Positions 11,361-36,400 of a stretch of 48,091 nucleotides of DNA are shown here, one piece after another; position 1 is the stretch's first letter, and each line of letters begins with the position of its first letter. The position numbers were made by a program, and so were the translations under genes. A model generated the notes under the pieces. It saw only the letters and a list, made by a program, of their open reading frames with translations. It ran no database searches and was not told where the DNA came from. Origin of the DNA: a virus; IMG/VR virus record IMGVR_UViG_3300017727_000020, positions 1 to 48,091 of that record; one strand, 5' to 3'.

Positions 11361-13646
11361 TTAACCAATTAATTCATTGAAAGAAACACCCGTTCTTGTG
11401 GCAACGAAGGTGATCGTAATAAAGTTGATCGTTCTAGCAGGTTTGATGTAAATCTCTGCTTGGAACTCGTTACGGTCAACGACATCGGGAGTGTTATTAG
11501 AGTCATCACATACGACCAAGAAGTCGTAGATACCTCTTCTTCCCTGAACATTTCTCAGATAAGGATCACATGCACCTTTAAATCCAGAGCGTGTAATTTC
11601 ATCGTTAATCTCGAATAATTGGAATTTCGAGAATCTAGCAATGTTCTTCTCTAGTTCAATAAACAAACGACGAACGTTAATTCTATCGAATGCCGATGGA
11701 GAAGATAGTGCAGTCTTATCACCGAATAAGACAATACCTTGACCTGGGAAAGAAACAACAGGGTTGATTCTCGCAGTGTAAAGTCTATCTCTTTCAGACT
11801 GTCTTGGGGAATATGCAAGTTTAGTTGCATTTCTTAGGTTTCCTCTGTTGTAACCAGCAGGAGAGAACCATGTTTCCGAATTGATCGTTGTGTTGATGCA
11901 GAGACCTGCAACATCAGCAGCGCAAGGAAGATAACGGTAAGTATCGTTGTACTTGTCGTAAACGTACTTATAACCACTATCAAAAATTGCATAAGAAGTA
12001 GACTGAAGTGTATTGAAGAAATCAATAATTGAGTCAGTTTTCTTTGTAGAAGTGTTGGAGTTGATTACATCAGTTCTCTGTGGAGAAACAACTGCAATAC
12101 AATCCCTTCTAGATTCTGCAACACTGATCAGTTTTGCAGCACCAGAAGCAGTAATCTTACCTGGAACTAAGAAATCAATATCAGCAAATTCTTCTGGATC
12201 TAGAACCAGATCATAAGATGCTTCAACTTGAGATTGAATTGAAGATGCAGCACCAGCCCAATTGTAGTCAGCACCACTCGCAAGTTTTTTGGAAATAACG
12301 TTGTTGAATACTGGGTAAACTGCGTTAGCAGAAGGACCACCAATTGCAGTTGCGGAAGCAACATTGGAACTATCATCTACTGCAATGATATCAGAAGTCT
12401 GTGCAAGAGTTCTATCACCACCATAGATGAAACTAGAACTCAACTCAAGAACTTTCTTCCAGAACTTGGTATCACCCTCTGTACTCTTAGCATCACTTGC
12501 TTTAGACAGATAGGTAAACGATTCGATCAGTGTACCTGGATTACCAGTTACATTACCATCAGTGTCAACTAGGACGATGTGTAATTCATCGAACTTACCA
12601 CCACGAGATTTAACGAATGGGGAAGTTCCTGGTTGGGGAGCAATAGATACCCACTTCTTACCAGATGCATATTCTTTACTGGAGTAAAGATCATTACTTG
12701 TAATTGCACTAACAGTAGCAATAGTTGCACCTGTATGATCCTGAATTACAGAAGATGCAGCAAGTCTCTTAGTCGTGTCCCAAAGGGTAACGTCGTAAGA
12801 ATCACTACCATTATTACTGTAAACAGTACCTTCATATGTGTTGGAACCACTTACCCACTTGATGTAAGAACCAGCAGCTGCAAGACTTGCACCAACCGTT
12901 GCGATATCAAATGTTAAATCAGCACCACCACCTGTACCGAGTTGAGCATCAGCAACAGTGATTGTATCATCAACCGCATATCCTGAACCACCACTTACAA
13001 CAGTGACTGTAGCAGCACCACTTCCATCAACTACGATGGAGAAAGTAGCACCAGTACCTGCACCAGCAGCTGTGTAGTCAGAAGCACCGATTGTATATGT
13101 ACCAGCTGTTCTACTTGCATCTGCAGCACCAACGGTGTCTACAGTTAAAGTTTGTCCTACTGCAGGTGTAACAGTTACCTGTTGGTGAGCACCAACGTCA
13201 ATCATGGAAACTGTAATTCCATTATGGAATGTACCGCCGTATCTACCTGCAAAAGTAAATGCGCTGGTTACTCCTCCATATGTTTCTTCATAATCAGATT
13301 GATTGTTAATTAGGAGTGTGGTTGAAGTTGTACCATCACTGTCAACATTAGCCGTTCTCAATGCCAAATCATTAGCCTGTCCTGGTTCTCCACCAGCAGG
13401 TCTAATAACAGCAGCAATACCACCGTACTGAATAATAGTAGCAGCGGCAAACCAAGACTCATAATTATATTCGGAGGGTTCACCGAAAATGTCTACCAGC
13501 TCTCTTTCGCTGGATACATAGGTGACCTCATCCGTAGGTCCTTTCGCCGAAGCGATAGAAACAACACCAATGTTTTGGTCCGAGACGTTAATGGTGGCTG
13601 TTAAGTCAACCTCCTTTATTTGTACTCCTGGTGAAGCAAACGCCAT
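11361..13646 (-). CDS. gp18: Contractile tail sheath protein gp18, with inserted GSGY-type module
   Basis: Sheath subunit whose contraction drives the tube into the host; 761 residues against 659 in T4. The N-terminus (FASPGVQIKEVDLTATINV) and C-terminus (FIELEKNIARFSKFQLFEIN, then RNEFQAEIYIKPARTINFIT) form the conserved sheath core that anchors neighbouring subunits. Residues about 165-255 are an insertion rich in Gly, Ala, Ser and Thr containing TGATFSIVVDGSGAATVTVV and SGGSGYAVDDTITV, a module also seen in other proteins of this window and likely surface exposed. Shine-Dalgarno GAGG lies eight bases before the ATG; an AATAAATA box lies upstream. Confidence 0.96.
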   Translation of the reverse strand: MAFASPGVQIKEVDLTATINVSDQNIGVVSIASAKGPTDEVTYVSSERELVDIFGEPSEYNYESWFAAATIIQYGGIAAVIRPAGGEPGQANDLALRTANVDSDGTTSTTLLINNQSDYEETYGGVTSAFTFAGRYGGTFHNGITVSMIDVGAHQQVTVTPAVGQTLTVDTVGAADASRTAGTYTIGASDYTAAGAGTGATFSIVVDGSGAATVTVVSGGSGYAVDDTITVADAQLGTGGGADLTFDIATVGASLAAAGSYIKWVSGSNTYEGTVYSNNGSDSYDVTLWDTTKRLAASSVIQDHTGATIATVSAITSNDLYSSKEYASGKKWVSIAPQPGTSPFVKSRGGKFDELHIVLVDTDGNVTGNPGTLIESFTYLSKASDAKSTEGDTKFWKKVLELSSSFIYGGDRTLAQTSDIIAVDDSSNVASATAIGGPSANAVYPVFNNVISKKLASGADYNWAGAASSIQSQVEASYDLVLDPEEFADIDFLVPGKITASGAAKLISVAESRRDCIAVVSPQRTDVINSNTSTKKTDSIIDFFNTLQSTSYAIFDSGYKYVYDKYNDTYRYLPCAADVAGLCINTTINSETWFSPAGYNRGNLRNATKLAYSPRQSERDRLYTARINPVVSFPGQGIVLFGDKTALSSPSAFDRINVRRLFIELEKNIARFSKFQLFEINDEITRSGFKGACDPYLRNVQGRRGIYDFLVVCDDSNNTPDVVDRNEFQAEIYIKPARTINFITITFVATRTGVSFNELIG

Positions 13647-16976: not shown

Positions 16977-16984
16977 TATTTATC
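16977..16984 (-). promoter_or_regulatory. Late-promoter-like box for the 85-residue gene
   Basis: Minus-strand GATAAATA fused to the TGA stop of the mosaic gene (TGATAAATA), about 19 bases before the ATG at 16958. Confidence 0.5.
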
Positions 16985-17783
16985 AGCAATTCCAAGCTCT
17001 AAGAGACTTGTTTATCCTGGAATCGGGATCTGATGCAGTTTTTTTGGAAGTTAGTTTCTTTTTCATTCCTTTCATTCTTGCACAGAATGATGATCTTCTT
17101 TTATTACCTTTCTTTTTAGATGGTGCTTTCAGGTCAGAACCAGGATTCTCTGCTTCATAAGACTTGCGTCCTTTTTCATTGAGACCACCTTCTTTATTTT
17201 TACCAGACTTTTTTGTCCACGCTGCACCTTCACTAACTTCGTCCTGTTCTTTGACGCAGTTATTTACAACTTTACCACCTTTCATTTTGGTGCCTTGTTT
17301 CTTATATCCTTTCCAACATGACAATGCTTTTTCAGAAATTTGTCTAAATTCACTGAAATCCACACCTTCTTTCTTGGACTTATTACCCCAGTTCTTAGCA
17401 CCTTTTTTACGACACTTGACCAAAGCACCAGATGCATATGCAGAAGGCCAAACATCATAACGTGATTTTACTTTATGATAACAAGCATCTTTCTTTTCCA
17501 ACATTGTTTCTTCTTGAGTCACGTTTTTTGCCTTCCCTTTTTTGTTTGGATTTGGATCTTCTGATCTTTTCTTAGCAGCTCGTTTGTTTCTTTCGTCTTT
17601 ACTCATTGATGCACGGTCATCTGCATCACGACAATATGGTTTTGTTGTTTGTCCTGGTTGTTTTGCACATGGTTTCCCATCGTACTTACCACCAGTTTGT
17701 TTCCAACCACCACCCTTAAACCAATCTTTAAGAGAATATCCTTTGTCCTTAGAGGACTTACCATCACGTTTTTCGTTAATCAT
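16983..17783 (-). CDS. Mosaic Lys/Cys-rich protein with marine-virus modules (DUF5872/DUF6321-like)
   Basis: A 266-residue, strongly basic protein built of four short modules. Module 1 (about 16-53): LKDWFKGGGWKQTGGKYDG then CAKQPGQ and YCRD, the DUF5872 style. Module 2 (about 93-135): ACYHKVKSRYDVWPSAYASG then LVKCRKKGAKNWGNK, a tag found on many marine phage proteins. Module 3 (about 155-178): CWKGYKKQGTKMKGG and VNNCV. Module 4 (about 188-266): GGLNEKGRKSYEAENPG, FCARMKGMKKKL, and DPDSRINKSLRAWNC, the DUF6321 style. Family names are from memory. The start is the ATG at 17783, one base after the previous stop; the same frame reads further upstream only through the Gly-rich coding of the previous gene. 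Its charge and place in the packaging cluster suggest nucleic-acid binding (inference). Confidence 0.82.
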   Translation of the reverse strand: MINEKRDGKSSKDKGYSLKDWFKGGGWKQTGGKYDGKPCAKQPGQTTKPYCRDADDRASMSKDERNKRAAKKRSEDPNPNKKGKAKNVTQEETMLEKKDACYHKVKSRYDVWPSAYASGALVKCRKKGAKNWGNKSKKEGVDFSEFRQISEKALSCWKGYKKQGTKMKGGKVVNNCVKEQDEVSEGAAWTKKSGKNKEGGLNEKGRKSYEAENPGSDLKAPSKKKGNKRRSSFCARMKGMKKKLTSKKTASDPDSRINKSLRAWNC

Positions 17784-17784
17784 T

Positions 17785-18057
17785 TTATTCTCCACCACCA
17801 CCATCTCCACCACCATCACCGCCGTCACCAGTAATACCAGATTCTGCTGCAGCAGCAGATTTCTCACTATCACTTACATCATTAACGGTATATTTATCCC
17901 ACATAGATCCACCATATCCACATGTACCACGTTTTTCACGTTTTTCACACAAACGACAATATTTTTCTTTTCCGCCATCAGAACACTTACTTTCAACCCA
18001 AAGATCAAAGTCAGCATGAACTAAATTTTGTACTCGGACCCAAGTGTTGGATTTCAT
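17785..18057 (-). CDS. Small Cys-containing protein with Gly/Asp-rich tail
   Basis: A 90-residue protein. The N-terminal half is compact and charged (NTWVRVQNLVHADFDLWVES) with four cysteines, CRLC and flanking CSDG and CGYGG, suggesting zinc binding. The last 20 residues are an Asp/Gly-rich low-complexity tail ending GGDGGGGE. No family recognised. It is followed one base later by the mosaic Lys/Cys-rich gene; its acidic tail beside a very basic product could mean the two interact, but that is only inference. Confidence 0.62.
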   Translation of the reverse strand: MKSNTWVRVQNLVHADFDLWVESKCSDGGKEKYCRLCEKREKRGTCGYGGSMWDKYTVNDVSDSEKSAAAAESGITGDGGDGGGDGGGGE

Positions 18058-18489: not shown

Positions 18490-19554
18490 TTAATAGTTGG
18501 TAAAGGATTCGTTGAAACCAAAATCGTCATCTGCTTCAACTAAGATATGATCTGCATCATTAATGACTGAGAACTTGTTATCTCCACCAGTACCTTGGGA
18601 TGTAATATCAACTGCAAATCCTTGTCTTGCATAAGACTTAGATTTTGCAACTCTAAAATTACTATCATCAATTCTAATGACAAAGTAATTTTGTTTATCT
18701 GTTAAACCACCGACAACTTGACCACTCGCGTCTTTATTGTAAGTAACTTTGTCTCCTGTAATAAATCCATGACTAGGGAGAGTAATAGTATTACTTGCAA
18801 CATTGAATGATCCGAACGGGATTGAAGATCCATCTCTGTTGAGATCTGTTGGAGCAGCAGGTGTTGCACTGTATCTGACATACCTGGAACCAACTTCCAT
18901 AGCGGCACTGATATCGACGTTGACCTTTTTGATAACGTCTGCAGTTGTGACAGGACCGTAGAGATATGTTTTAGCAGTAAATTGTAACGTATGAATCAGA
19001 GTTCTTCTTGTAGTAAAATCTGATTCATAATCGTCTTGAATACCGACACTGTTCAAGATGATTGGAATATCTTTCTTTTCACTCATTTTTGAAATGAGAT
19101 TAATTGTAATATTAAATACTGGCTGAAAATACGGTAAAATTTGTTCTAAAATTTCTACAGAATCTTCATTATTTTTACTAAGAATACTTAATTCAAACTC
19201 AACATTATATGGTACTGGAGCATATGTAGAGTAAGATTTTTTAGTATCACCTTCTTTTTCAGCCCTAGATAACTGAATAGGTCCAAGTTTTCTTGTAGGA
19301 TCATATTGAATACCCTTCATTTCAAATGACATTCTTGGTAATGTTATTTGAGTATCTGCACGACCATCTAAAGTTGGTTCAGCTTCAATACGGGCAAGAA
19401 ATTTTTCTCTCGGTCCATAATTAAGAGGAACTTTGAGAGTTTGAATTACTTGTCCTGCATTATCAGTTCTATGCAGTTCAATATTATTGAACAGAGTACC
19501 AAAACCAATAATGGTTTTTCTGATAATTTCGTGATAAAAGTGTGTACCTAACAT
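18490..19554 (-). CDS. gp15: Proximal tail sheath stabiliser gp15 with adhesin-like insertion
   Basis: Tail terminator ring that caps the tube and sheath and joins the neck. At 354 residues it exceeds T4 gp15 (272). Residues 1-225 follow T4: start FYHEIIRKTIIGFGTLFNNI, VPLNYGPREKF, the strong shared motif ILEQILPYFQPVFN (135-148; T4 has QIVEQILPYFQPHFN), RRTLIHTLQFTAKTYLYGPV. Residues about 255-331 are extra: NTITLPSHGFITGDKVTYN, GGLTDKQNYFVIRIDDSNF and VDITSQGTGGDN, which looks like a repeat unit common in giant bacterial surface adhesins. The start codon overlaps the gp14 stop (TAATG). Confidence 0.93.
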   Translation of the reverse strand: MLGTHFYHEIIRKTIIGFGTLFNNIELHRTDNAGQVIQTLKVPLNYGPREKFLARIEAEPTLDGRADTQITLPRMSFEMKGIQYDPTRKLGPIQLSRAEKEGDTKKSYSTYAPVPYNVEFELSILSKNNEDSVEILEQILPYFQPVFNITINLISKMSEKKDIPIILNSVGIQDDYESDFTTRRTLIHTLQFTAKTYLYGPVTTADVIKKVNVDISAAMEVGSRYVRYSATPAAPTDLNRDGSSIPFGSFNVASNTITLPSHGFITGDKVTYNKDASGQVVGGLTDKQNYFVIRIDDSNFRVAKSKSYARQGFAVDITSQGTGGDNKFSVINDADHILVEADDDFGFNESFTNY

Positions 19555-21392
19555 TAGAAGCTACCTGTTTGATTTCCGAATTCACCGAATGGATTACCTT
19601 CTGTCCAATCAACAATACCGTCTGCTTGAGTCTCGAAGTATGTATTTTCGGAAATATCGGAATTTTCAATTTCTATGGAACTAAAACTATCTATCACAGT
19701 TTCAGCCCCACTAGTTTCACCGATTAAAGTATCATCATCGGAAAAATTACCAACAATGTCAATTAATTCCAATTCTTTATTAGTAACATCATATCTTGCA
19801 ACCTTACCTGTAGGTTCACTTGGAGAAGGTGTAATAGTTATTCTTGGTGCAGTTGTATAACCAGCACCAGTATTTTGTAACGTTATAGATGAAACTGTAC
19901 CATTTGTTAATGTAGTCGTTGCAGTTGCTTGAGTTCTGGTTGGGGATGTAATAGTTACAGTTGGAACCTCTGTATATCCCAAACCTCTATTTGAAATATT
20001 GATAGAAGTAACAACACCATTTGAAATAGATGCAGATGCAGTTGCTTGAGTACCACCAGCAGGCGGAGCAGATAAAGTGACAGTTGGTGCAGTTGTATAA
20101 CCAGAACCAGCAGTGCCGACAACACCAGTATTCACATCCGAAGTTATAGCAGTAACTCTGAATGTTGGTTGATCTACAACACCAGAAAGAGCAACTGTTA
20201 CAATATCACCAACAACATAATTGATACCATCATTAGTTCCATTGATTGCAACTGTTGCAACATCACCATTTGCATCAGCAGTAAAGTCAATCCTCAATCC
20301 AGTACCAGAACCACCAGTTGTAACAATATTGTTTAGGACACTTGCAATACCAGTACCGTTATTAACAATTTCTAATGCTGTTACAATACCATTCTGTAAT
20401 GTTGCAGTTCCTGTTGCATCTACTGCATCGGGAGCACCAATTTTTACAAGTGGTGCGGTTGTATAACCAGTTCCTGCCTTCCTAATTGTAAAATTATTAT
20501 TTAATGTATAAACCGAAGATACTCCATTCTGTAAAATATCAGCAGTAAACTTAGTTCCATGAACCTTTTCACCAAACTCAAATACACCACCTGCAGTTAG
20601 AATTGCTTCAGCTGTTGCACCAGTTCCTGTTCCAGTAATTGCTACTGTAGGAGCGGTTGTAGTATATCCAGAACCTGGATTTGAAATACTAATTTCAGAT
20701 ACTCTGGTATTCGTAATTGTAGGTACGACAGTAGTTGGTGCAATAGTACCAGTAACATTACCGATAGTTACTACAGTATTTCCACCATATCCAGTTCCCT
20801 CATTAATCATCCTGATATACTTAATACCACGAACCCAATTATGAACAATTGAGTATGCATTTTCTGTGGCAATCTTATCAATCTCATCAATACCAGTCTC
20901 AAGTCTTTCATCAGAAAACTCCATGAGTTCACATGTAAGACTATAAGTAGGGACATCACCTAAAGGTCTTAAAGGTGTTTCATTTTCTACAAATTTAATT
21001 TGAAATAATTGTTGAGTAAGAGGGAAGTAAATTGCATCACCCTCATTTGGTCTTTCTGCAGAAACCAAATTATTGGATTTTGATTGTACCAAGTCTTCCC
21101 ATCTACGTCTGGAAACTATAAAGGTTGCTTCTTCAGCAATCCTGACACCAAACTTGGTTAGGAGTGTTCCATCTCCCTCGAAACCATCATAGTTTTGTAA
21201 ATATACTTCTATGAGATAATTCTCGTCAAATTTAGAAAGTACATCCTCTCTGAATAGTCTATCTGTTGTCACCATTTCTCTGGGCAAGTAATAAATATCT
21301 TGCCCATAGATCTGCATCGATTCGATGATTAGATCTTCATAGAGTAGTTGTTCGGATCTTGTTCCTTGAGAGAAATATACGTTCTTAGCCAT
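19554..21392 (-). CDS. gp14: Neck protein gp14 with large GSGY-repeat insertion
   Basis: Neck protein that, with gp13, joins the filled head to the tail and supports whiskers in T4. 612 residues against 256 in T4. Residues 1-195 are the gp14 core: EDLIIESMQIYGQDIYYLPR, DENYLIEVYLQNYDGFEG, TKFGVRIAEEATFIVSRRRW, GDAIYFPLTQQLFQIKFVE; T4 has the equivalent SIQMRGVECYYVPREY and GDLIYFPMDNSLFEI. Residues about 200-545 are an insertion of some six beta repeats built on GxGYTTAPTVTI. The C-terminal 60 residues return to the core (LELIDIVGNFSDDDTLIGE, then NPFGEFGNQ). The stop overlaps the gp15 start. Confidence 0.93.
   Translation of the reverse strand: MAKNVYFSQGTRSEQLLYEDLIIESMQIYGQDIYYLPREMVTTDRLFREDVLSKFDENYLIEVYLQNYDGFEGDGTLLTKFGVRIAEEATFIVSRRRWEDLVQSKSNNLVSAERPNEGDAIYFPLTQQLFQIKFVENETPLRPLGDVPTYSLTCELMEFSDERLETGIDEIDKIATENAYSIVHNWVRGIKYIRMINEGTGYGGNTVVTIGNVTGTIAPTTVVPTITNTRVSEISISNPGSGYTTTAPTVAITGTGTGATAEAILTAGGVFEFGEKVHGTKFTADILQNGVSSVYTLNNNFTIRKAGTGYTTAPLVKIGAPDAVDATGTATLQNGIVTALEIVNNGTGIASVLNNIVTTGGSGTGLRIDFTADANGDVATVAINGTNDGINYVVGDIVTVALSGVVDQPTFRVTAITSDVNTGVVGTAGSGYTTAPTVTLSAPPAGGTQATASASISNGVVTSINISNRGLGYTEVPTVTITSPTRTQATATTTLTNGTVSSITLQNTGAGYTTAPRITITPSPSEPTGKVARYDVTNKELELIDIVGNFSDDDTLIGETSGAETVIDSFSSIEIENSDISENTYFETQADGIVDWTEGNPFGEFGNQTGSF
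19800..20790 (-). repeat. In-frame GxGYTTAP repeats within gp14
   Basis: Degenerate coding repeats of about 45-60 residues each, marked by GTGYGGN, GSGYTTTAP, GTGYTTAP, GSGYTTAP, GLGYTEVP and GAGYTTAP, with linking segments of the type NGVVTSINISN and NGTVSSITLQN. At DNA level the GGTTATACAAC-type core recurs (seen on the plus strand as gttgtataacc at about 19853, 20093 and 20459). Probably expanded by in-frame duplication. Confidence 0.85.
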
Positions 21393-21393: not shown

Positions 21394-22233
21394 TCATCCT
21401 ACAAAGTCTAAAGGTGGTAATTCATATGTAGTGGACATCTTATCCTCGATGGCCTGTAGTTCACTAATGGCGTCATCATAAATTTGTCTACCATTAAATT
21501 CTACACCTCCAGGCATTTTAATTCCCTGGAATTTAATTAAATTCATACCCCATTGTTTCTTGATAAGAGATGTGAGATATTTTTTAACAAAAATTTCGTT
21601 ATAAACTTTAGTAAATTCAGTAGGATCTAATGCTCTATAACAATCAATAATAACGTAATCATCTACTGCAGCAAGATCCCAATCAATATCTAAATATAAT
21701 CTATTGTGTACTTTATTATACCTAATATCTTTATTACCTTCAATTAAGAAATCTAATGTTTCCAGATATTGCATAGTCATTTCCATGTTAAGAATGTCAT
21801 ATGCATAGAAGTTGTAGAAATCATTCAAGAAGAATTGATATCTAAAACCAAACATATTATTGACCATGGAATTAGAGATTTTTTTAATCCCTTCAACTCC
21901 AAGAACATGATCGGGTAGAGTTAAAAATCCTCTACCTTCTTCAAAATTAAGAGTTCTTGATGAACCATTAGCACCAGCATTTGTATCTGTTGATGTAGTG
22001 GTAAAGTTTCTTCCAGATCCTCCTTTACCACCATTAGTAACATCATCAGCAGTTAGTTTGTACTTAAGGTACATTCTTTCTGCGCCATTATAAGTCCTTT
22101 CACTAAACAACTGAAGGGTATCATCAATGAGATCTTCAACTTGATCTTCATCAACATTGATCTCAATGACAGGTTTACCTAGCTGCCTCAAGCAGTATTC
22201 TTTTAATGTGGATCTACTACTTGGTTTTGCCAT
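21394..22233 (-). CDS. gp13: Neck protein gp13
   Basis: Forms the head-to-tail connector ring with gp14. 279 residues against 309 in T4. Family pattern: LKEYCLRQLGKPVIEINVDE at the start, QVEDLIDDTLQLFSERTYNG, LTLPDHVLGVEGI, a central FRYQFFLNDFYNFYAYDILN, and the strand-turn RLYLDIDWDLAAVDDYVIID, then YRALDPTEFTKVYNEIFVKK and a C-terminal GQRIYD-like GRQIYDDAISELQAI. A short Gly-rich loop interrupts residues 72-93. The start codon overlaps the stop of a 57-residue gene (TAATG). Confidence 0.94.
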   Translation of the reverse strand: MAKPSSRSTLKEYCLRQLGKPVIEINVDEDQVEDLIDDTLQLFSERTYNGAERMYLKYKLTADDVTNGGKGGSGRNFTTTSTDTNAGANGSSRTLNFEEGRGFLTLPDHVLGVEGIKKISNSMVNNMFGFRYQFFLNDFYNFYAYDILNMEMTMQYLETLDFLIEGNKDIRYNKVHNRLYLDIDWDLAAVDDYVIIDCYRALDPTEFTKVYNEIFVKKYLTSLIKKQWGMNLIKFQGIKMPGGVEFNGRQIYDDAISELQAIEDKMSTTYELPPLDFVG

Positions 22234-22421: not shown

Positions 22422-24599
22422 TTAGTATGTGCCACCATCAAGAGTAGTTGACCAAACTGGAACACCCGAACTAGTTACAGTTAAGAGCTGGTAGGATGTG
22501 TCTTGGTCAGCAGAACCTGCAGCAACAGTTCTTGTCAATCTCTTGTATTGATCGAAGAATGCAACACCATTCAAGATACCATCATCAAGTTTGACAGTCT
22601 TGAACCATGCAGCACCTCTAGTTCCAGCAAATACATTTGCATTATTTGTTGAATCTGGAATGTAACTGAAATACTTCTCACCTTCTGTTGTTGTGGTTTC
22701 GTCATAACCGAAGAAACCTAGTTTGGAAGATGATCCATCCAGATACTTAAACTGAATACCACGATCCATGTTATCGTCAGATGCTTGACTGATAGTCAGT
22801 TTCGCTTCTGCATCAATTCCAGCGGAGATCGCATTGGAAACTGTAATGGTAGTAGTATTGAATACCTTAGTATTTACTTTAGTAATCGATGCGAGTTGAG
22901 CACTAGCCGGAGTACCAGTACCAACACTAGAGAGTGAGTTACCATTGTAGAAGTCATCACCACGAGTGGAGATATTAGAAGCAAGATCTAATGTTACTTC
23001 ACTTGCCGTTTGAGAAACGAAAGTACCGACCTCAGCGAAACTCTCTCCATTATAGAAGTATAGAGTTGCACCAGAAGAAGGAGCAGAACCGAAGTTCTGG
23101 GAAACGTTGAAAGAAATTCTAACGTTGGAAATTGTTGTAGAGTTTGGAATCGAAGTTCCAGTAATAGATGCACCTTCTACGATAGAAGAAGGATTGTCGA
23201 TAACAAGATCAGTAGCACCCGAAGATGCTGCACTCATTACAGTCTTTTCGGAAACAGTATCACCAATCGTAAATACTGGATCATTAACCGACATTTCAGT
23301 CGAGTTAACAGTTGTAGTAGTACCAGCAACTTGTAAGTTACCACGGATGATAACATTACCACCTGCATCACCTGCATCGGGGAATGGATCAAGAACCAGA
23401 TCCTGTGCATTCAGGTTATCTGTGGAAATCTCATTACCTTGAATACGGATGTGACCCAGATCCAACATGGTACTTGCAGTACCCATGTTAATTGTAGTTG
23501 CTGCACCAAATGCATTAACTGTAGTTGCTGTAGTATTTAAGAGGTTGAAAGATGTCTGGTTGGTTGTGATGTCTCCACCATCAACATTCAAATCAAGATC
23601 AATATCAAGGTTATTATTAATACTTGTAGTACCTGATGCGGCACCGATATCAATTGCAGTAGCAGCGCCGAAAGCGTTTACACTAGTTGCAGTTGTGTTG
23701 TACAGATTTTGAGTTGTCTGTGTACCAACAACAGTCGGATTACCGATTGTCATCGTACCAGAGTTTGCACCCACATTCAATCCAGTTGCAGCACCAAAGG
23801 CATTGACTGTAGTGGCGGTAGTATTGAAAACGTTTTGTGTAGTTTCAGTACCATCAACAGTGTTATTGCCGAAAGTAGTTGCACCAGCACCAGAAGCACC
23901 AATGTTAATATCACTACCAGCACCGAATGCATTTACTGTAGTAGCAGTTGCATTGAATACGTTTTGAGTAGTTTCCGTACCAACTAAGGTTCCCGATCCA
24001 AGAGTGGTGGTGTTAGCACCAGATGCACCAATATTAATTGCAGTAGCAGCACCAAACGCATTGATTGTGGTTGCGGTGGTGTTTAACAGGTTAAATGATG
24101 CTTGATTGGTGGTCAGATCACCACCATCAATATTGACATCGTTATCGAAGTCAACGTTACCACTTCCAAATGTGATTAGTTCAGAACCATTGGTGGTATC
24201 AATTGCGATATATTGATTACTACCTTCTTTAACCTCAAAGGCATCTGCAGTATCATCAGGAATACTGGTTGAACTAGTTCCTGTTGTTACTAAGTTACCA
24301 GTGATAGTAACATTAACATTGTTATATGTCCAATCAGCACCAGTTACTTGAACTTGGTCAGATGAATTCTCGTCATACTCGATCTTTGCGTCTTTGTCCG
24401 AACCAAACGAGAGAAATGTATCATCAACAATATTAATTTCACCAGACCCAGCAGGATCTAGGATGATGTCACCATTCGAGTTAGTCGAAGAAATGGTGTT
24501 TGAATCAAATCTAAGATTATCAACATTAAAAATGTCAATTTTTGAATCTTGGTCAATGACCAAGGCAGAGTTTGCAGTCAAAGTACCATGTTGATGATC
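22422..24599 (-). CDS. Repeat-rich fibre-like virion protein, main part (frameshifted from its N-terminus)
   Basis: About 725 residues without an ATG start of its own. It begins in frame at DHQHGT then LTANSALVIDQDSKID, exactly where the upstream 87-residue frame should continue; restoring one base would give a single protein of about 806 residues. Contents: a DNLRFDSNTISSTN head strand region, five units containing TTATTVNAFGAAT (about 165-370), then a NVIIRGNLQVAGTTTTVNS beta-prism-like region and a globular C-terminal part with RGIQFKYLDGSSSKLGFFGY and FFDQYKRLTRTV. This order, with TGGT-rich triplet strands, is typical of trimeric cyanophage tail-fibre or structural proteins. A TTG at 24581 could serve as start, but homologue logic makes that unlikely. 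Confidence 0.85.
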   Translation of the reverse strand, partial: DHQHGTLTANSALVIDQDSKIDIFNVDNLRFDSNTISSTNSNGDIILDPAGSGEINIVDDTFLSFGSDKDAKIEYDENSSDQVQVTGADWTYNNVNVTITGNLVTTGTSSTSIPDDTADAFEVKEGSNQYIAIDTTNGSELITFGSGNVDFDNDVNIDGGDLTTNQASFNLLNTTATTINAFGAATAINIGASGANTTTLGSGTLVGTETTQNVFNATATTVNAFGAGSDINIGASGAGATTFGNNTVDGTETTQNVFNTTATTVNAFGAATGLNVGANSGTMTIGNPTVVGTQTTQNLYNTTATSVNAFGAATAIDIGAASGTTSINNNLDIDLDLNVDGGDITTNQTSFNLLNTTATTVNAFGAATTINMGTASTMLDLGHIRIQGNEISTDNLNAQDLVLDPFPDAGDAGGNVIIRGNLQVAGTTTTVNSTEMSVNDPVFTIGDTVSEKTVMSAASSGATDLVIDNPSSIVEGASITGTSIPNSTTISNVRISFNVSQNFGSAPSSGATLYFYNGESFAEVGTFVSQTASEVTLDLASNISTRGDDFYNGNSLSSVGTGTPASAQLASITKVNTKVFNTTTITVSNAISAGIDAEAKLTISQASDDNMDRGIQFKYLDGSSSKLGFFGYDETTTTEGEKYFSYIPDSTNNANVFAGTRGAAWFKTVKLDDGILNGVAFFDQYKRLTRTVAAGSADQDTSYQLLTVTSSGVPVWSTTLDGGTY
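23485..24110 (-). repeat. Five coding repeats of the NTTATTxNAFGAA type
   Basis: Units near 24040-24100, 23910-23970, 23785-23840, 23650-23710 and 23490-23555, each encoding F/YNTTATTVNAFGAAT or a close variant followed by INIGASG-like residues, linked by VGTETTQNV-type segments. The period is about 40-45 residues. The pattern suggests a fibrous beta-structured shaft whose length can change by recombination between units. Confidence 0.88.
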
Positions 24600-24841
24600 A
24601 ACATGTCGGTAAAATACTTACCACCGATTACATCGATATTTGCAGCATGACCGCTTCCATCCTCGGTGCCCTGACCGACGAATAGTTTACCACCTGCATT
24701 GACTGAAGAACCACCACCGGCCTGCACCTTATCAGGATATGTACCAGCACCATAACTGTATGCGGGTTCACCGTTTCGTAGATTACCTGGTGTTGATGTT
24801 GGAGAAGTACTAGACCTCTTTAACTTTAAAAACGTACTCAT
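24578..24841 (-). CDS. N-terminal piece of the fibre-like virion protein, out of frame with its remainder
   Basis: An 87-residue frame: STFLKLKRSSTSPTSTPGNL, NGEPAYSYG, GGKLFVGQGTEDG and IGGKYFTDML, a well-known cyanophage fibre N-terminus, then six residues (IINMVL) and a stop. In related proteins as I remember them, GGKYFTDML is followed by DH..GTLTANSALV, which is present here in the next frame. The likely cause is loss of one G in what would be TTGGAT (minus strand, about 24599-24600). It could be a sequencing or assembly error, a true mutation, or a programmed shift; I see no canonical slippery heptamer. Confidence 0.85.
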   Translation of the reverse strand: MSTFLKLKRSSTSPTSTPGNLRNGEPAYSYGAGTYPDKVQAGGGSSVNAGGKLFVGQGTEDGSGHAANIDVIGGKYFTDMLIINMVL

Positions 24842-24863: not shown

Positions 24864-25076
24864 TTAATAGAATCCTGCGTTGATCGTAAGACCGTCATTT
24901 TCAAGAATATTTCTCGCTACCCATGTTTGAGTTGCAAGATCATACTGCAATACAGCACCATCTCCAGCACTTTGTAGGTTTACATCTGTCAGAGATGATA
25001 GTCTGCCTGAAGAACCACCAGAGGCGGCAACAGTAATCACTTTTGGTATATTTGAAACGGTGACCTTCGTATTCAT
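24864..25076 (-). CDS. Small fibre-associated structural-type protein
   Basis: A 70-residue protein. The core LSSLTDVNLQSAGDGAVLQ then YDLATQTWVARN is a motif that recurs as repeats in cyanophage tail appendage proteins, where it forms short beta hairpins; here it occurs once, before a short tail. The ATG overlaps the stop of the preceding gene (ATGA). It lies just upstream of the fibre gene and may be an attachment or capping piece (inference). Confidence 0.68.
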   Translation of the reverse strand: MNTKVTVSNIPKVITVAASGGSSGRLSSLTDVNLQSAGDGAVLQYDLATQTWVARNILENDGLTINAGFY

Positions 25077-25405
25077 GTTGTTACTCCTGGATTAACAGTA
25101 ACGACGCCCTCGATCACTCTCGTTTTAGTTCCTCCTGCGGAGGTTACAACAACATCGTACAGATACCTTCCGGCTTCTAACGTTGATGTTGCAGACGCAA
25201 GTAGTGTAAGTACCACAGTTCCAGCTTCAGTGCTAGAAACTGTTGCAACAAAACTAGTCGATGTAGAACTAGAAAATGATTTCTTGAGTTTTGCTTCGGC
25301 ACTATAGCCGGTCAAATCCCAAGCAGCATTGCTGTCATCATAGACGCCGACTTGAACAGTAAAGTCCGAGCCTTGGTCTATGTATAAGTTATGTACTGCT
25401 GCCAT
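25073..25405 (-). CDS. Ig-like (BppU-N-type) appendage or baseplate protein
   Basis: A 110-residue all-beta protein: NLYIDQGSDFTVQVGVYDD, WDLTGYSAEAKLKKSF, a STEAGTVVLTLLASAT strand, LEAGRYLYDVVVTSAGGTK, and a closing EGVVTVNPGV. This order (polar strand, DLTGY, T-x-LEAGxYxYDV, G-x-V-x-V-x-P-x-VT) resembles the N-terminal domain of siphophage BppU-type baseplate proteins that plug receptor-binding parts into the baseplate. It has two TATAAATA boxes upstream, the best promoter matches in the window together with that of gp8. Role: adapter for the adjacent fibre (inference). Confidence 0.7.
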   Translation of the reverse strand: MAAVHNLYIDQGSDFTVQVGVYDDSNAAWDLTGYSAEAKLKKSFSSSTSTSFVATVSSTEAGTVVLTLLASATSTLEAGRYLYDVVVTSAGGTKTRVIEGVVTVNPGVTT

Positions 25406-25449: not shown

Positions 25450-25659
25450 TCAAGTATTTATATGGTTAACTACTTGTTTGAGTAAATCTTTGAGTTCGCC
25501 AATTTCTTGCTCGATTTTATCGAGTCTATCTTCTTTTTGAATTCGATTTTTATATGCTTCCATATATTGTTCATAACTATGGACATTGGTATTTACAATA
25601 CCCCCAGATGTTTTATCTCTCGATAAATCTGGGTGTCCATTCACATGAATATTTGTCAT
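25450..25659 (-). CDS. Small helical protein between DUF4815-type and appendage genes
   Basis: A 69-residue protein. The first 27 residues look unstructured or extended (NGHPDLSRDKTSGGI); residues about 28-69 form a coiled-coil-like helix (YEQYMEAYKNRIQKEDRLDK then EQEIGELKDLLKQVV). Its ATG overlaps the stop of the 2042-residue gene (ATGA). No family recognised; probably a tail accessory or assembly helper (inference). Confidence 0.68.
   Translation of the reverse strand: MTNIHVNGHPDLSRDKTSGGIVNTNVHSYEQYMEAYKNRIQKEDRLDKIEQEIGELKDLLKQVVNHINT
25455..25462 (-). promoter_or_regulatory. Second perfect TATAAATA box
   Basis: Exact consensus, but inside the last codons of the 69-residue gene; 28 bases upstream of the other box. 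It may be a tandem promoter or chance codon use (CAT ATA AAT ACT). Confidence 0.45.
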
Positions 25660-28600
25660 ACTGCAAGTGCGAGTGATCTAAAGTTTCTAATTTTAGGCGC
25701 ACTGCTTTGATTGTCAGAAATCATTACTATTTTGACCGCAAATTCTTTGAATTTTTCAAGTCCAGTAATTTCATAATCAAAAGCCTTAAACCCTTGATCA
25801 TCTGTAGAAATTGGATAACCATTAGAAGAAACTGGAACTTCTACATATTCAATAAGATTAAATGCGTCAATTTCATCATCACTTTTTGTTCTAACAAAGA
25901 CTTTGATATCAGAACCTTGTCTTCTGATAGCATCAAACATAACCCTAACAGAAGTTGCAGATGTTTCAAGATTAACTTTTTTTGTAATATAAACAGCATC
26001 ATGTAAAGAACCAGATGGTTCTAATTCACTGGTAAGATTCAATGTTCCATCAAGATTGGATATCTTGTTAATTCTATTCATTGCAGTAATAACGGAAGAA
26101 CCAGAAATTTGTAGTAACGGACTTACGTTATCGAATAGAGATGTCATAGTTGTGTTCAAAGCAAAACTTTGAGCACTACCATAGTTATCTTGATTTGGTT
26201 TAGAAATAATGACTCTAGAAGAATCTAATTCATTTACCTTTAAGTTTTCTAAAGAAACTGTTGGAGTTTTACTAAATGTACCCAATGTTTTCTCAGAAAC
26301 AGATGCACCAGCAACAGCGTCCATAGTTACAGAAAGATTAGTTCCTGGCAATACCAATTGATTAAATTGTGGTGTAATACTTTCAAACTGCAAGTTTCTA
26401 GAAGCGTTAATATTTTTACCACCAGATTGAATGGTTTCATTTGCTTTAGCAGTTGTATTAATTTTATATCTATCCATATCAATAACATCAGACAACTGAT
26501 GTCTGTTATTGATTTCGGTTAATGGAATACCATTAAGTGAATAGAATTCAACCGTATTGTTTGTATTATGGGCAACAATTGTAGTATTAGATAATCCTCT
26601 ACCACCTGCAGGAATAGTTAATGTATTTCCAGAAATTGATTTGTAGCCGATAATTTCACTACCAATACGAATCAATCCAAGATTTGATGCACTAACTGCA
26701 GCGTTATTAATCTGTGATGGTGCAAATGTAGCATCAGAAAGTGTGATAACAGTATCAACAGTGAACTGTTGATTTGTAATATTTGTTTGTAATTTTACTG
26801 GTGGGATATCAGATACCACACCAGAAATATCAACATAGTTTTGCAAAGTATGCATACAATGATTTGGATGCAATACAGTTACCGATGCAACATTGTCGGT
26901 AAAGTATAAAGAATTTGCTGGTAACTTTACTTCTGGAATAATGTTATTTCCAATATTAGCAGTTGCATTACTGTTAATACTAAATTTACATCTATTAATT
27001 GTGAATTTAATATCTTCAAATTGATCTGGAGTCCAGATACTCATATTTTGCGACTTAAACAAACTACCAACAGCTGGTTGTTTGTTAATAACTTGATTTG
27101 TAGTAACATCATTTTCATTTAGTCTGGACACCCAAACTTTATAGTTCAAAGATCTAGTTCTAAGAACAAAACAATAATCATTACCTTCAGAAAGGTATAC
27201 TGGAGTTTCAAATGTAAATCTAGTTGCAGTTGAAGCAGTTGAAGAAACGTTGATCTGAGAAGCTTCTAAAGTTACTTTACTTAGAGGAACAATTTCTTCA
27301 GTTGGGAAACCATTTTTAATAGTTCTGATATCGATATTTACAGGAGCGGTATTATCCTTAGACTGGAAGAAAACATCGATAGAAGACAAGAATACACCAC
27401 CTTCTTTATTAATAAAGAAAGATTGGGCAAGTGGATCACCACGACGTGGCGGTGGTGGTGGTGGATCAGGAATGAATCTAGTTCTAGTTTCTGAAATTGG
27501 GGTAGAAGTGATTTCGGGAATTTGGAAATCAATACTTAAACTTGTCAATTCAAGTAAAGTTCCATCGGAATCATAGTTAGCAACTGCATTGGTATCAGAT
27601 ACACCAGCAATTGTTGTGTTATCTTTTTGATCAGTTAATACAAATCTGGATTGACCAGTTTCAATTGTACCTGGAGGAACAATAATAAATGAATGAATTT
27701 CACCAGAAGAATTTGTTGTCAGTCTAGGATTAGATAGTTTTACTTCTGCAATTGCACCAGTTGTCTGACCTTCAAATGTAATGCTGTCACCAGGATTAGT
27801 TGGATTAATCAAAGATCCATCATTAACTGTTACATCTTTAATTGCTAAAACTGTAGTTGATGCACTATAAGATGATCCTAATGTGGAGTCGTAATCAGAT
27901 GGTGAAACAACAGTTGCTTCTAGGTTCCTTGGAGAAACGCCAACTTGGGGTAGAGTTGGAGTAATAGTTACTTTTTCACCTACAACAAAAGCAGTACTAT
28001 TAACAGTTCTAGTTACGTTGGATAACAATCTAGGGAAAATAACATTGTTTGAATCTTCACCATCAATGAAGAAATACATCTCAGTATTTGGTTTTAATCT
28101 ATTAGCGAACGCATCAATAACAATAGATCTGGCAAATCTTAGTGATTCGACTGAATCAATTCTATCACCAACTTCTATATTCTGTGTCGTAGTACTAAAT
28201 TCATTATTTACTCCATCTCTCTGTTGAAAAATGTTTGTACCACCACCTGTTCGACTTGATCCAGTTCTATTCCAAGATCCCCACTGGTTGCCATCGGCAC
28301 CACTTTGATCATACAAGAACTTGATAGGACCAGATAAATCAATCTCTGGTACATTTTCAGGAGCAGTTCTCCTAGTATCATACCAAACATCTCTAGATGG
28401 ATTTATTTGGAAATCACCAATCCATGTCGTAGTATTAAATGGATTTAAATTTACAACCCTACTTGCATAAGGATTTGATTGCAATTCAACTTGAGTGTAA
28501 GGTAAAGTTAAGTAATCTCCAGTCTTTTGAAGAATAGAACTACCAACTACAGCTATACTTACATCGGGAGCATCAAACTTTAAACCAACATTATTTACAT

Positions 28601-31600
28601 AAGGATATGGTCTAATAAGAGATTCATCGATATCCAATGACATCTTAAAGTCAACATTGTTAGTGTCGGCAAAATTTCTAGATTTAAAATTATCAACTAA
28701 GAATCCATTCTTAAATCTGTTGTTTCCACCACTATCCAGAACGAGCATATTGTTCGTATCTGTTTCAAGTAAACTTAATGAAGTATAATATTCAACATTA
28801 TCAAGTCTACTCTCAAGACCACCAATATCTTTCATGGTGTATCTTTTGTTATCTTCCGTCTGAATTTTAACAGTTTTTACATCTCTCAAATATGCTGGTA
28901 CTGAAAGTGTAGCAAGACGCAAAGAATTTGAAAGATCTTCTGGTGCTGAAGGATTAGCAGATTCAGCACCAATAGAAATTACAAATTTACCAGACTTATC
29001 TAGATATACTCTGTCAATTCTGTTTGCATAGTAGTTATAATCATAACTAATAAACTCTGATGGATATGGGAAAACCTGCGTAGATTTTGTAGTCCCAAAA
29101 ATATCAAACGCAGAAATTGCATTAGAACAAACATAAGGTGCAATAGCAACACCAGTACCAGTAGATAATGATGTAGAAGCTGTAGTTCTAAAATCAAATA
29201 CATCAGTATATGGAGATCCATCAAAATTATATGGAATATCTCCATAATTGATATCATTTACAGTGTCATAAGAAGCAACCGAAAAGAAATCATTATTTGT
29301 TTGACCATGTTCAAAATAATCAAATACTACTGTAATTTTATTTCTAGGAGTAGGTCTGTTTCCAAGTCTTGTTAACTTAGAAATTCTATAAACATCTTCA
29401 GTATCATTTTTACTTAAAGCAAAGTTCTCAGTAATATCAACATATGATCCATAAACAACTTCAGTTAAAAATCTACCGACTAAATCTGGATTTGTATATA
29501 CAACAATCTGTGTTGTTAAATTAGTTCCTTCTACAAATTTTTCTTCTTGTAAGAACTTAACATATACAGTAACACCATCAATATTGATTACTCTAGCAAG
29601 AATATTATTCTGTTTTAGAATATCTCCAACAACAAGTCCTGTTGTGGAATTCATAAGGACACGATCAAACATATCTACATCTGCAACTCCAGAAACAACT
29701 GCTTCATGGATAGCATGTACTTTGAAAACATCTGGAAATTTTAAATTAATTTCTTTGTCATCAAACCTATTTCCATAGACACCAAATGAAGGTCCTTTAG
29801 CATTTTTCGCACTAAGGAAATTATATGTTTTAAGTGTCTTCTCTTTAATTGATGTGTTGTTTACTCTAAGCTTATAGTAGATATCAACAGTAGTTGGTGA
29901 ACCACTAATACCAGAGAGAACAAGAGTTTGTCCGTTAATAGATGCAGTAGCAGTATGAGTTCCAGTGGAAGAAGTGATTAAATATCCACTTGGAAGTGGA
30001 GTAAAATTATTAGGAACAGAAATTGAAACTTCACCACCAACAACACCCTTAGATATTTTTTCTAATTTTGTGTATGAAAAGTCACTGATAGATTTTGTTG
30101 GTAAATTAGCAGAAGATACAAAGAACTTTTTATTTGCAGACTGGAGTCCTACACTACCATTGATAGTAGCAGTAAATGAAGCACCATTATTAACGATATT
30201 ATCGATATTAGCAATAGTATAAACCGTTAATGAACTAATTGTGTAAGTTACACTGTCTTTACTATTACTAAAGACATCTCCTTGTGTAAATTTACCACTA
30301 ACTTGTCTTACTTGAATAATTGAATTTGAACCAGAAACAGTAACACCATTTACTACTGCTCTTGTTCCTCTACTATTAAAGATAAAATCACCTTCTACCA
30401 AACCAGTAGAATTATTAGCAACTGTAATTGAATTATATGTACTTAAATCTTGTAAATATAATTTTCCACTAGTTAAACTAATTGCTCTAGCTTGACCAAT
30501 ATTATTATTACTACTATTTCTTAATGAAAGGATTTCACCTGCAGTAACACTACCAGTAGTAGCAGTCGTTGTTAGGTATTGTCCAAAATTAATATTAGTT
30601 GCTTTATTATTTACTTCAAAAGAAGATCTTGGTTTTTCTACAAGTACATATTTTTTGGAAATTGTAGAAACTTCAAATCCTCTAACATATGCTTTACCAG
30701 GACCAATTTCTATAGTATAGAAATTATCACCATTAATAGAATTTTCGGGATCTGTTGCAATAGGGTCTCGTGAAAGAATAGTTCTTCCATCCTCAAGTAC
30801 TTCATTAGGATTATACACACCCCCGTTCGCACCATTATTTAAAGCTTCTTTGACTCTAATACTAAAATCTCTTGTTGTATAATTTCCAGACTCATCAAAA
30901 GTTCTTCTCGCAAGATTTTTTTCGAGTTCACTATAAAAAGAACGATCTACAATTTCTTCAAGTTCACCAGAAGATAATCTAAGTAATTCAATAAAATCTG
31001 CGTTATCAGAAAAAGAAGTAAGTTCTTTACTTAAAGTTGCTGTAATTTTCAGTCTGTCTGCACCAGGAGCTGCAAAGTTAGTAGATCCATTAGCATTATC
31101 AAATAAGGTAGAATCGTCATCCGTAGAAACTTTAGACTCTGCAATAGACAAACCAACTTTGTATACTGGTTTATTTGAATATTGATCAAGAATAAGAGTT
31201 TGATCAAGAACTTCTACAAAATATCCACGAATATAATAGATACCGTTTGTAATATAAGCAACACTACCAGTGTATTCAGTAGCATTTTGTAGATATGTTA
31301 CTGCAACTGCACCAACTGTGTCTGTATTGATAAGAGTTTCATTGTTTGCAAACCTTGTTTGCTGAGAACCATCAGAATTTATTCCAGATTTTGTATACTT
31401 AACATACAACGTTAAAGCATTTTTTTCAGAAGTTTCTACTGAAACAGTATTTACAACAATAGCTTCAACTTCAGAGTTTTGTCCTCTTAGAGTAGTGCCA
31501 ACCAAAGCTTCTCTATAAGATTCAACTTCAATACCATTAACAAGGTTCTGTACTAAGACAGCATGATATTCCAAATCATATCCCACCTGACCAGGAATTA

Positions 31601-31784
31601 CAACCGAACCATCTTTAAAAGTATGATTGGCAAAATTCTCAATCTGATTCTGCAACTGTGTTTGCAGTTGAGTTAATTCTCTAGCTTGGACTGGTCGTCC
31701 TGGTTTGAACAGAATCTTTTGATAGTTCTTAGAACTATCAAAGTCATCAAAATATGGCGCCAGTTTAAGGTTGGTCTTCTGCAT
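25656..31784 (-). CDS. Giant DUF4815-type baseplate/tail virion protein
   Basis: A 2042-residue structural protein. The N-terminus (LKLAPYFDDFDSSKNYQKIL then PGRPVQARELTQLQTQLQNQ) is the DUF4815 hallmark of cyanophage and other myovirus virion proteins; this part spans several hundred residues. A beta-rich middle follows. At about 1437-1446 a poly-Pro hinge (PDPPPPPPRRGDPLAQSF) leads into a C-terminal receptor-like block: GGVFLSSIDVFFQSKDN, YLSEGNDYCFVLRTRSLNYK, WTPDQFEDIKFTINR. It lies straight after gp8, where T4 has gp9, gp10 and gp11, none of which I find here, so it plausibly replaces part of the outer wedge and fibre socket (inference). A CATAAATA box lies upstream. Confidence 0.87.
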   Translation of the reverse strand: MQKTNLKLAPYFDDFDSSKNYQKILFKPGRPVQARELTQLQTQLQNQIENFANHTFKDGSVVIPGQVGYDLEYHAVLVQNLVNGIEVESYREALVGTTLRGQNSEVEAIVVNTVSVETSEKNALTLYVKYTKSGINSDGSQQTRFANNETLINTDTVGAVAVTYLQNATEYTGSVAYITNGIYYIRGYFVEVLDQTLILDQYSNKPVYKVGLSIAESKVSTDDDSTLFDNANGSTNFAAPGADRLKITATLSKELTSFSDNADFIELLRLSSGELEEIVDRSFYSELEKNLARRTFDESGNYTTRDFSIRVKEALNNGANGGVYNPNEVLEDGRTILSRDPIATDPENSINGDNFYTIEIGPGKAYVRGFEVSTISKKYVLVEKPRSSFEVNNKATNINFGQYLTTTATTGSVTAGEILSLRNSSNNNIGQARAISLTSGKLYLQDLSTYNSITVANNSTGLVEGDFIFNSRGTRAVVNGVTVSGSNSIIQVRQVSGKFTQGDVFSNSKDSVTYTISSLTVYTIANIDNIVNNGASFTATINGSVGLQSANKKFFVSSANLPTKSISDFSYTKLEKISKGVVGGEVSISVPNNFTPLPSGYLITSSTGTHTATASINGQTLVLSGISGSPTTVDIYYKLRVNNTSIKEKTLKTYNFLSAKNAKGPSFGVYGNRFDDKEINLKFPDVFKVHAIHEAVVSGVADVDMFDRVLMNSTTGLVVGDILKQNNILARVINIDGVTVYVKFLQEEKFVEGTNLTTQIVVYTNPDLVGRFLTEVVYGSYVDITENFALSKNDTEDVYRISKLTRLGNRPTPRNKITVVFDYFEHGQTNNDFFSVASYDTVNDINYGDIPYNFDGSPYTDVFDFRTTASTSLSTGTGVAIAPYVCSNAISAFDIFGTTKSTQVFPYPSEFISYDYNYYANRIDRVYLDKSGKFVISIGAESANPSAPEDLSNSLRLATLSVPAYLRDVKTVKIQTEDNKRYTMKDIGGLESRLDNVEYYTSLSLLETDTNNMLVLDSGGNNRFKNGFLVDNFKSRNFADTNNVDFKMSLDIDESLIRPYPYVNNVGLKFDAPDVSIAVVGSSILQKTGDYLTLPYTQVELQSNPYASRVVNLNPFNTTTWIGDFQINPSRDVWYDTRRTAPENVPEIDLSGPIKFLYDQSGADGNQWGSWNRTGSSRTGGGTNIFQQRDGVNNEFSTTTQNIEVGDRIDSVESLRFARSIVIDAFANRLKPNTEMYFFIDGEDSNNVIFPRLLSNVTRTVNSTAFVVGEKVTITPTLPQVGVSPRNLEATVVSPSDYDSTLGSSYSASTTVLAIKDVTVNDGSLINPTNPGDSITFEGQTTGAIAEVKLSNPRLTTNSSGEIHSFIIVPPGTIETGQSRFVLTDQKDNTTIAGVSDTNAVANYDSDGTLLELTSLSIDFQIPEITSTPISETRTRFIPDPPPPPPRRGDPLAQSFFINKEGGVFLSSIDVFFQSKDNTAPVNIDIRTIKNGFPTEEIVPLSKVTLEASQINVSSTASTATRFTFETPVYLSEGNDYCFVLRTRSLNYKVWVSRLNENDVTTNQVINKQPAVGSLFKSQNMSIWTPDQFEDIKFTINRCKFSINSNATANIGNNIIPEVKLPANSLYFTDNVASVTVLHPNHCMHTLQNYVDISGVVSDIPPVKLQTNITNQQFTVDTVITLSDATFAPSQINNAAVSASNLGLIRIGSEIIGYKSISGNTLTIPAGGRGLSNTTIVAHNTNNTVEFYSLNGIPLTEINNRHQLSDVIDMDRYKINTTAKANETIQSGGKNINASRNLQFESITPQFNQLVLPGTNLSVTMDAVAGASVSEKTLGTFSKTPTVSLENLKVNELDSSRVIISKPNQDNYGSAQSFALNTTMTSLFDNVSPLLQISGSSVITAMNRINKISNLDGTLNLTSELEPSGSLHDAVYITKKVNLETSATSVRVMFDAIRRQGSDIKVFVRTKSDDEIDAFNLIEYVEVPVSSNGYPISTDDQGFKAFDYEITGLEKFKEFAVKIVMISDNQSSAPKIRNFRSLALAV

Positions 31785-33431: not shown

Positions 33432-36400
33432 TCAATTAGCGAAATATACTTTGTCGTCAGTTGCACCCGTTTGAGCGGTGGTTCCTACAACACCTCTGGT
33501 CACACCTTTCAATTCATTGGAAAGTTTAGTTGTGTATTCAATACACTCATTACCGATAAATGCACGATAAGAGTCATAACCAACACCTTCATTCACGACA
33601 GTAATACTAGTGATAGTACCAGAACCATCCAGTGTGGGTTCTAGAACAGCACCAGTACCACCGCCATTATTTACCGAAAGACTAAGTGATGGGTCCAAAG
33701 CATTTTGATATCCAGATCCACCATTTACAATTTCTACTTTAGTCAGTTTACCGTCAACCACAAATGGTTGGAAAACTGCACCACTACCACTATCAGCAGA
33801 AGTTGTGATAGTAATATCACTTCCTGATGCCATAGAAGTTCCAGTAACTCCAATTAATTCTGCGGTAGTTGTAATACTACCACTCAATTTAGTACCGAAA
33901 GTAACTTGGTTAGAATCTAGAAGTGTACTTCTTACAACTGCAGATTCATATGTTGGGACAAGAACAAATCCATTTGGCGAGGCATTACTAAGATTGGGAA
34001 GATTCCATCCTTCCTGGTCAATAGTTGTAGAAGTAACAACATTACCATTGATTGGATCAATTAAGATATTTGCAGATGCATTAGTACCAATACCATATGT
34101 TTTTAATTTAGTATTTCTTGGATATCCAAGTCCACCATTATTAATGGTAATACCTGTAAGAGACCCACCAGAAACAGATGCAGTAGTAGATAGTCCAGAT
34201 GGACCAGTCAAACCAGTTGGACTTGTTACTTCCATCACAGAAGGAGAGTGTACCGCTGTAACCTCTCTTGACATAGATTCACCAGGAATTTGAATAGTAT
34301 CACCAACAGAAACTTGAGAACTATAAGATTCTGTCTTGACATCTAATCTCTCGCCATAATAATCACGAATTCTAATGGCGTTACCAGAAGAAATTACATT
34401 ACCCCTGAAGTTAATTGTATCTCCCAAAACATAATAATCTGTTCTAGGATCTAAAATACTACCATTAGATGTAACCAATAATTGATTTTCTAATTCTTTT
34501 GGTCTACCAATCAAAGCATCTGGATAATATGCAGCATTTAATTCAGTAATTTCAACACTTAATGTTGCAGTGTTGGTAGATCTACCAAATAACAAAAGAT
34601 CTGTATTTACAGGTGAAAATGTTGTGGTGGTAATTCCATTAGAAGTTCTAATTATAGTTGGATTCAGACCTGTAGTACCAACAGAAATTCCAACATTGCT
34701 GGAACCAGTATATCCAGATACTGTAAATTTCACTGTATATTGGCGTCCAATCACAAATACATTGGGGATGTGGAAATAACTTGCACCAGAACTATTACCA
34801 CCACCCCAACCAACGGTAGAGTTATTAGCAACAGTCCAAGATCCTCCTGAATTATGTGTTAAACTGCTTCCACCCATACCACCTGGACCAAAACCCTCAG
34901 CACCAGTATTAGCATTAACTGTAGTACTAATATCAGTACTCAAATTGTAAGTTGTTGCAGAAGTTGCGGTAATATTATTTAAAGTATCCATAACGCCATG
35001 TGTACTAATAAAGATATTATCACCCGATTGTGGTGCAGTAGTGAAATTAACTCTGGATTTGATAGTACCATCTAAAGTGTAATCAGATACAGGGTTAAGA
35101 ACAACATTATTTTTAACAACAATGATATTTTCTGAGTGTGGATCAGTACCACCATATTGTTCTGCTGGAACGAAATTTTCATCATCCAGGAACATATTGA
35201 AAGACAACGTTGTACTATTAAATGGTGTATTGATGTAATCCATCACAGTTCCAGATTTTGTCAGGATACCAAATGGAGTACCAGATGTAGTTGGTACATT
35301 CAACTGAATCTGACTATTACTGAGGAAGGAATATCCCTTACCTTCAGCAAGTCTGACCTGATCATTTTGAATAATGATTAGACCTTCATCTTCATAATTA
35401 GCAAGAGTCCTACTCAAATTGAAGATAGTATTTGATCCACCATTAGATGTTAGAGTAATTACCTCATTTTCATGCATCATGATAGTGAAAATTTCATCAC
35501 TAGCAATAGGTGCTACTGTAAAGTCGATACAACCCTTTGCACTATCTGTTGCATGTCCACCAACATCTGTAAGATGATAATCGACATCTGGTTGCAGAAC
35601 AACATTATTTTTTGAAACAATTAAATCTTCATGGCCGGTATAAGTATTGTCCTTAACACCATCTAGGGTAACTCTGAATCTAGTTCTAGTTCCATCATAT
35701 GACTGATTGATCTCGTTAGTCATATACTGTCTAGTATTACCAGGAGCAAACTGAACGAGATCAATCGCAGCAAGATATCCAACTCCCATAGGAATTGTCA
35801 TATTATCATATGTGTTACCATTTCCAATACCAGAACTTGCAGCAGTTGCAGTTCCAGCGTGATCATATGCAACTCCAGGTTCTTGAATGACACCGCCAAA
35901 TGCAACAAAGGTATTTGCTGGGTCATCATGCATTACACTTGCATTTAGATTGAGAAGTGTAATCAAGTAGAACTGAGATGCAATTGTGATCGTACCAGAT
36001 CTTTGTGGTACATTAACTACATCAGTACCAGTGATTGTAGTAGAACCAGTTCTCTGATTTACTGTAAATGTGTTATTGACAGTTGCAATCTTTACAGTAT
36101 TTGCATTTCTTTGTAGGACTAATAACCAAGCATTCAGAATATCTCCAAATACATGTGCTGGACGTAAGTCACCAGTCTTGGCATGGAATTCTAATTGATC
36201 AGTCGCAACAGTTGGTAGATTTGTACCACTAAATGTTAGTGTATTTGCAGCACCATCCCAAGTGTAGGAATTTTGATCTTGATACACACCATCAACATAC
36301 ATGAAAGGAACTTTCGTTGCATGATTAGCAATTGCAGTAGTATAAGAAAGAACAGTAGATGATGTTTGTGTTAACTCATCTGTTCTATCTGCAAAGTTTG

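Follow-up and report, generated by a model that had tools for sequence, protein, structure and literature searches.

A one-base frame break at a hairpin-forming palindrome in a tail-fibre-like gene of a T4-like virus record

Does a fibre-like gene that is split between two reading frames reflect programmed translation, a lesion in the virus or a fault in the assembled sequence? The question is raised by a 48-kb virus record, IMGVR_UViG_3300017727_000020 of IMG/VR (positions 1 to 48,091, hereafter the window). The window is of T4-like type: capsid, sheath, neck and baseplate genes were found, and its large terminase subunit and portal match those of Synechococcus phage S-CREM1 (77%) and S-SM1 (65%). 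Judged from the sequence and the list of open reading frames (ORFs), a fibre-like gene that runs on the minus strand from 24841 to 22422 changes frame after codon 81. We conclude that the change is probably a one-base loss private to this contig, located at a hairpin-forming palindrome, not programmed and most likely of technical origin.

One gene in two frames

The upstream ORF (24841 to 24578 on the minus strand, 87 amino acids) ends with GGKYFTDML, then IINMVL and a stop, and the frame after the join continues in the −1 register as DHQHGTLTANSALV... to a stop at 22422. The frames join at 24598/24599 and overlap there by about 40 bases; the 81 and 725 codons on the two sides make 806 together (Table 1). 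The initial annotation had described the two frames and their shared join at 24578–24620 in the same way, and had interpreted them as one fibre-like gene split by a one-base frameshift. This interpretation holds. When both halves were searched for a single family, both matched the profile phrog_15769 in the right order, residues 1–81 aligning to profile positions 1–64 (E = 3.6e-11) and the C-terminal part to positions 371–560 of 560 (E = 4.5e-62). The same 806 codons form one uninterrupted frame in a near-identical contig, so two unrelated frames have not simply come to lie side by side by chance. Profile order, together with the conserved neighbourhood beside neck and baseplate genes, suggests that the gene belongs to PHROG 15769, a family of T4-like virion or fibre-like proteins. 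Translation could possibly reinitiate at a TTG that overlaps the upstream TGA.

Table 1 Features of the fibre-like gene and its neighbours in the window
Feature	Coordinates	Strand	Basis
N-terminal part of the fibre-like gene, 81 codons (MSTFLKLKRSS...GGKYFTDML)	24599..24841	-	100% identical to residues 1–81 of L002, the homologue in the near-identical contig; phrog_15769 profile 1–64
Off-frame tail IINMVL and TGA stop, after the lost base	24578..24598	-	Missing from 80/80 homologues
Remainder of the fibre-like gene, 725 codons plus stop, read in the −1 register (DHQHGTLTANSALV...)	22422..24599	-	L002 has both parts in one 806-codon frame
Downstream ORF as an ORF caller would give it, TTG start overlapping the upstream TGA (TTGA), 719 aa	22422..24581	-	ORF list
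Perfect inverted repeat, 9-bp arms and 1-base centre (9-1-9), spanning the deletion	24587..24605	.	Sequence inspection
Upstream neighbour, 70 aa, intact (phrog_13853, function unknown)	24864..25076	-	Profile match
Upstream neighbour, LtfC-like, 110 aa, intact	25073..25405	-	Profile and domain match
Protein of 2042 aa with DUF4815; its gene opens the syntenic block	25656..31784	-	Profile and domain match
Neck or head–tail adaptor protein (gp13-like), intact, downstream	21394..22233	-	Profile match; position as for gp13 downstream of the P-SSM2 orthologue

We predicted the structure of the first 260 residues of the intact protein (L002). In this model of moderate to weak quality (mean pLDDT of 71.7), a helix spans residues 75–81 and confidence falls below 50 at residues 81–83, which would place the break at the end of a small N-terminal domain, near residue 81. 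The model lends slight support to the earlier view that both parts look fully functional. No solved structure matched the N-terminal domain by sequence, or by fold at E < 0.001 with the same model. Several predicted viral structures that resemble the model bear the name Mtd_N (PF18454), an N-terminal domain type of phage receptor-binding proteins; the window protein has no Pfam match to Mtd_N at the gathering score, and among 40 homologues a single one gave a match (E = 0.012).

Intact homologues and a near-identical contig

A scan of IMG/VR with the N-terminal part returned 340 relatives, the best 80 of which were fetched and examined. The join is read through without a stop in all 80, and the orthologues in the isolates P-SSM2, P-HM2 and Pelagibacter phage Mosig also read straight across it (3/3); the two-frame layout was not found among these best 80 of 340 homologues or the three isolates. 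The initial annotation described continuity in cyanophage homologues, and the metagenomic sequences, the isolates and the near-identical contig alike support it. Homologues split at this point with independent starts, which would have spoken for separate genes, were not seen among the best 80 of 340. The orthologues are not limited to cyanophages, and the best named isolate match for the N-terminal part is Mosig. The join falls within the most conserved motif of the family, GGKYFTDMLDHxHGTLTA, and IINMVL has no counterpart in the relatives (best 80 of 340).

The isolate orthologues (PHROG 15769) are PSSM2_118 of P-SSM2 (T4-GC 114), PHM2_092 of P-HM2 (T4-GC 509) and Mosig_00068, annotated as ‘putative tail fiber protein’. 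They share with the window gene the N-terminal motif and a similar C-terminal end (DGGTF/DGGTY), but each is one continuous frame, about 530 to 570 codons long, whereas the window gene adds up to 806 codons with the break after codon 81. Gene order in P-SSM2 and P-HM2 matches that of the window: a very large protein, small genes, the orthologue, a small gene and a baseplate or neck gene. At the DNA level, the similarity of the window to the isolates is too low to inform the question of alleles.

The most telling comparison is with IMGVR_UViG_3300049810_002303 (G001; its homologue locus is L002), which carries the gene intact at 806 codons. Over an overlap of 28,646 bp, it differs from the window by seven substitutions and exactly one indel, which is the one in the fibre gene. 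Both alleles were sought in viral_contigs, where only the intact allele was found outside the window, and in genome_contigs, where there was no match; G001 is the only near-identical contig found to span the break, in a search from which records very near the window may be missing.

Five of these substitutions alter a protein sequence (5:2 nonsynonymous to synonymous). They fall in the ferredoxin-like protein (window position 47957), the gp6-like baseplate protein (46123 and 45631) and a 3826-amino-acid protein (41342 and 36608). At all five sites the window residue is the odd one, and G001 and most or all close relatives differ from it. At 47957, 41342 and 36608, G001 and the closest relatives share another residue; at 46123 the nearest relatives carry either the residue of G001 or an acidic residue like it; and at 45631 the window residue occurs in none of the relatives and the G001 residue in several. 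Relatives vary at the codons of the two synonymous differences, which therefore give no polarity, and counts of private residues per relative are too affected by distance to add to this result. The 5:2 ratio would fit unselected changes, and the window contig appears to carry such changes on its own side (five of five substitutions and the indel, a small sample). Changes that ignore conservation in this way favour errors of consensus or amplification, as selected variation does not usually do so.

The palindrome and the origin of the break

The site at 24587–24605, a perfect inverted repeat in the window, is an imperfect palindrome in the intact contig, with one unpaired base in one arm; this is the affected base, and its loss makes the palindrome perfect. 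A small change that perfects an imperfect inverted repeat is the common trait of quasipalindrome-associated template-switch mutations (PMC7202029). Template switching at quasipalindromes, which produces more perfect palindromes, was first seen in yeast CYC1 and T4 rIIB, and the cases described include Ripley 1982, a hotspot in Escherichia coli thyA and T4 rIIB (PMC7202029). Unlike those mutations, the present one is deduced from two natural alleles only. Each allele is predicted to form a hairpin as DNA, with energies of −6.7 and −5.8 kcal/mol and z of −3.8 and −2.8. Depending on the strictness of the definition, 3 to 156 of the 28,646 shared bases occupy such a quasipalindrome position, giving a random indel a probability of about 0.0001 to 0.005 (0.01 to 0.5%) of falling on one, in a test that was framed after the site had been seen. 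The pattern points to a polymerase template switch as the origin of the indel, an event that could have taken place in the phage or in the tube. Inverted repeats have been reported as Illumina error sites, a cause that is disputed (PMC4787001).

In related viruses (loci L003 and L005), the same motif also spells a short near-palindrome, with slightly different bases. A hairpin may therefore recur at this conserved run of codons.

The initial annotation offered a recent lesion, a sequencing error or a programmed shift, and the last of these fares poorly. A programmed −1 ribosomal frameshift would yield both a short and a full-length fibre protein, and the −1 register of the continuation, the frame overlap and the hairpin at the join are in its favour. 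However, no canonical X_XXY_YYZ heptamer lies in register in the overlap, the palindrome sits at the shift itself rather than a short distance 3′ of a slip site, the break lies inside the most conserved motif, and no shift is needed in any of the 80 homologues (best 80 of 340), the three isolates or the near-identical contig; we regard programming as exceedingly improbable. It is just as hard to credit two genes, one for a small protein of 87 amino acids and one for a long fibre protein with its own TTG start. The overlap of start and stop would permit translational coupling and the N-terminal domain of the model stops close to residue 81, but this arrangement occurs in 0 of 80 homologues (best 80 of 340), and the break interrupts the conserved motif to leave a tail without counterpart. 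It is also very unlikely that the motif-coded hairpin is a mutational hotspot through which natural populations inactivate and restore the fibre gene at an appreciable rate, as a contingency locus for an appendage protein.

Error and lesion both remain in contention, with error favoured. The window would contain an ordinary T4-like (cyanomyovirus-type) tail-fibre-like gene in which one base is gone in this contig only: on reaching the imperfect palindrome within the gene, which can form a hairpin, a polymerase would have dropped the base and so perfected the palindrome, probably during amplification, sequencing or low-coverage assembly. The other unselected changes in this contig make an error of the contig the most likely origin. 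Two marks of a consensus error are present, namely a near-identical sequence without the change and further unselected changes at conserved sites. One study reported viral assemblies with fewer than 2 indels per 100 kbp from short reads and 22.78 from polished long reads (PMC6487183); the window, at one indel in 28.6 kb, falls within this span and would need no special explanation. Less probable is a real and recent loss-of-function lesion in the sampled virus, formed when the phage replicated and its polymerase switched template at the quasipalindrome; it would leave a stub of 81 + 6 residues (87), perhaps with small amounts of a C-terminal fragment from a weak restart at the TTG. The signature is known in vivo, phage T4 included (PMC7202029), an otherwise undamaged gene means that any lesion is recent, and the seven substitutions could be true strain differences; a true lineage with several slightly harmful changes would give an identical pattern. 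However, selected polymorphism would not be expected to place all the amino-acid differences on the window side and against conservation, selection should act against the loss of a conserved virion gene, and no other carrier was found in viral_contigs. Error is favoured over lesion because the five changes against conservation are in the window contig and absent from the near-identical one.

The window thus carries a known gene with an unremarkable break, which is private to one contig as far as searched and most likely of technical origin. The two ORFs should be annotated as one broken gene, neither an 87-residue protein nor a fibre-less virus should be deduced from the contig, and the window consensus should be treated with care. 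Comparison with a near-identical contig, with attention to the side that carries the conservation-breaking residues, is a rapid way to check for consensus errors. Were the deletion real and common, it would represent quasipalindrome mutagenesis in a structural gene of an environmental phage. A host-range or regulatory role, as first proposed for the break, found no support. A structural YadA-domain protein mutates in cyanophage adaptation experiments (PMC6224464); it is a different, larger protein than the fibre-like protein of the window.

Other features of the window

A second suspected frame break, at overlapping ORFs in 16983–18057, seems to be a normal boundary between two genes, with a separate ATG, and no lesion is seen there. 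The single frame of 3826 codons at 33432–44912 has patchy matches to baseplate-wedge and several virion structural families and may encode a very large composite structural protein. At 47571–48047, the ferredoxin-like protein (phrog_3704, auxiliary metabolic) adjoins gp25-like and gp6-like baseplate genes. The tail sheath (761 amino acids, 11361–13646) and the gp14-like neck protein (612 amino acids, 19554–21392) have extra stretches that match fibre or structural families, which suggests fibre-like insertions. Finally, two genes (4510–5565 and 10695–11327) match the tail-tube family phrog_45, the 351-amino-acid one over only about 200 residues, consistent with a possible tail-tube duplication with an added domain.
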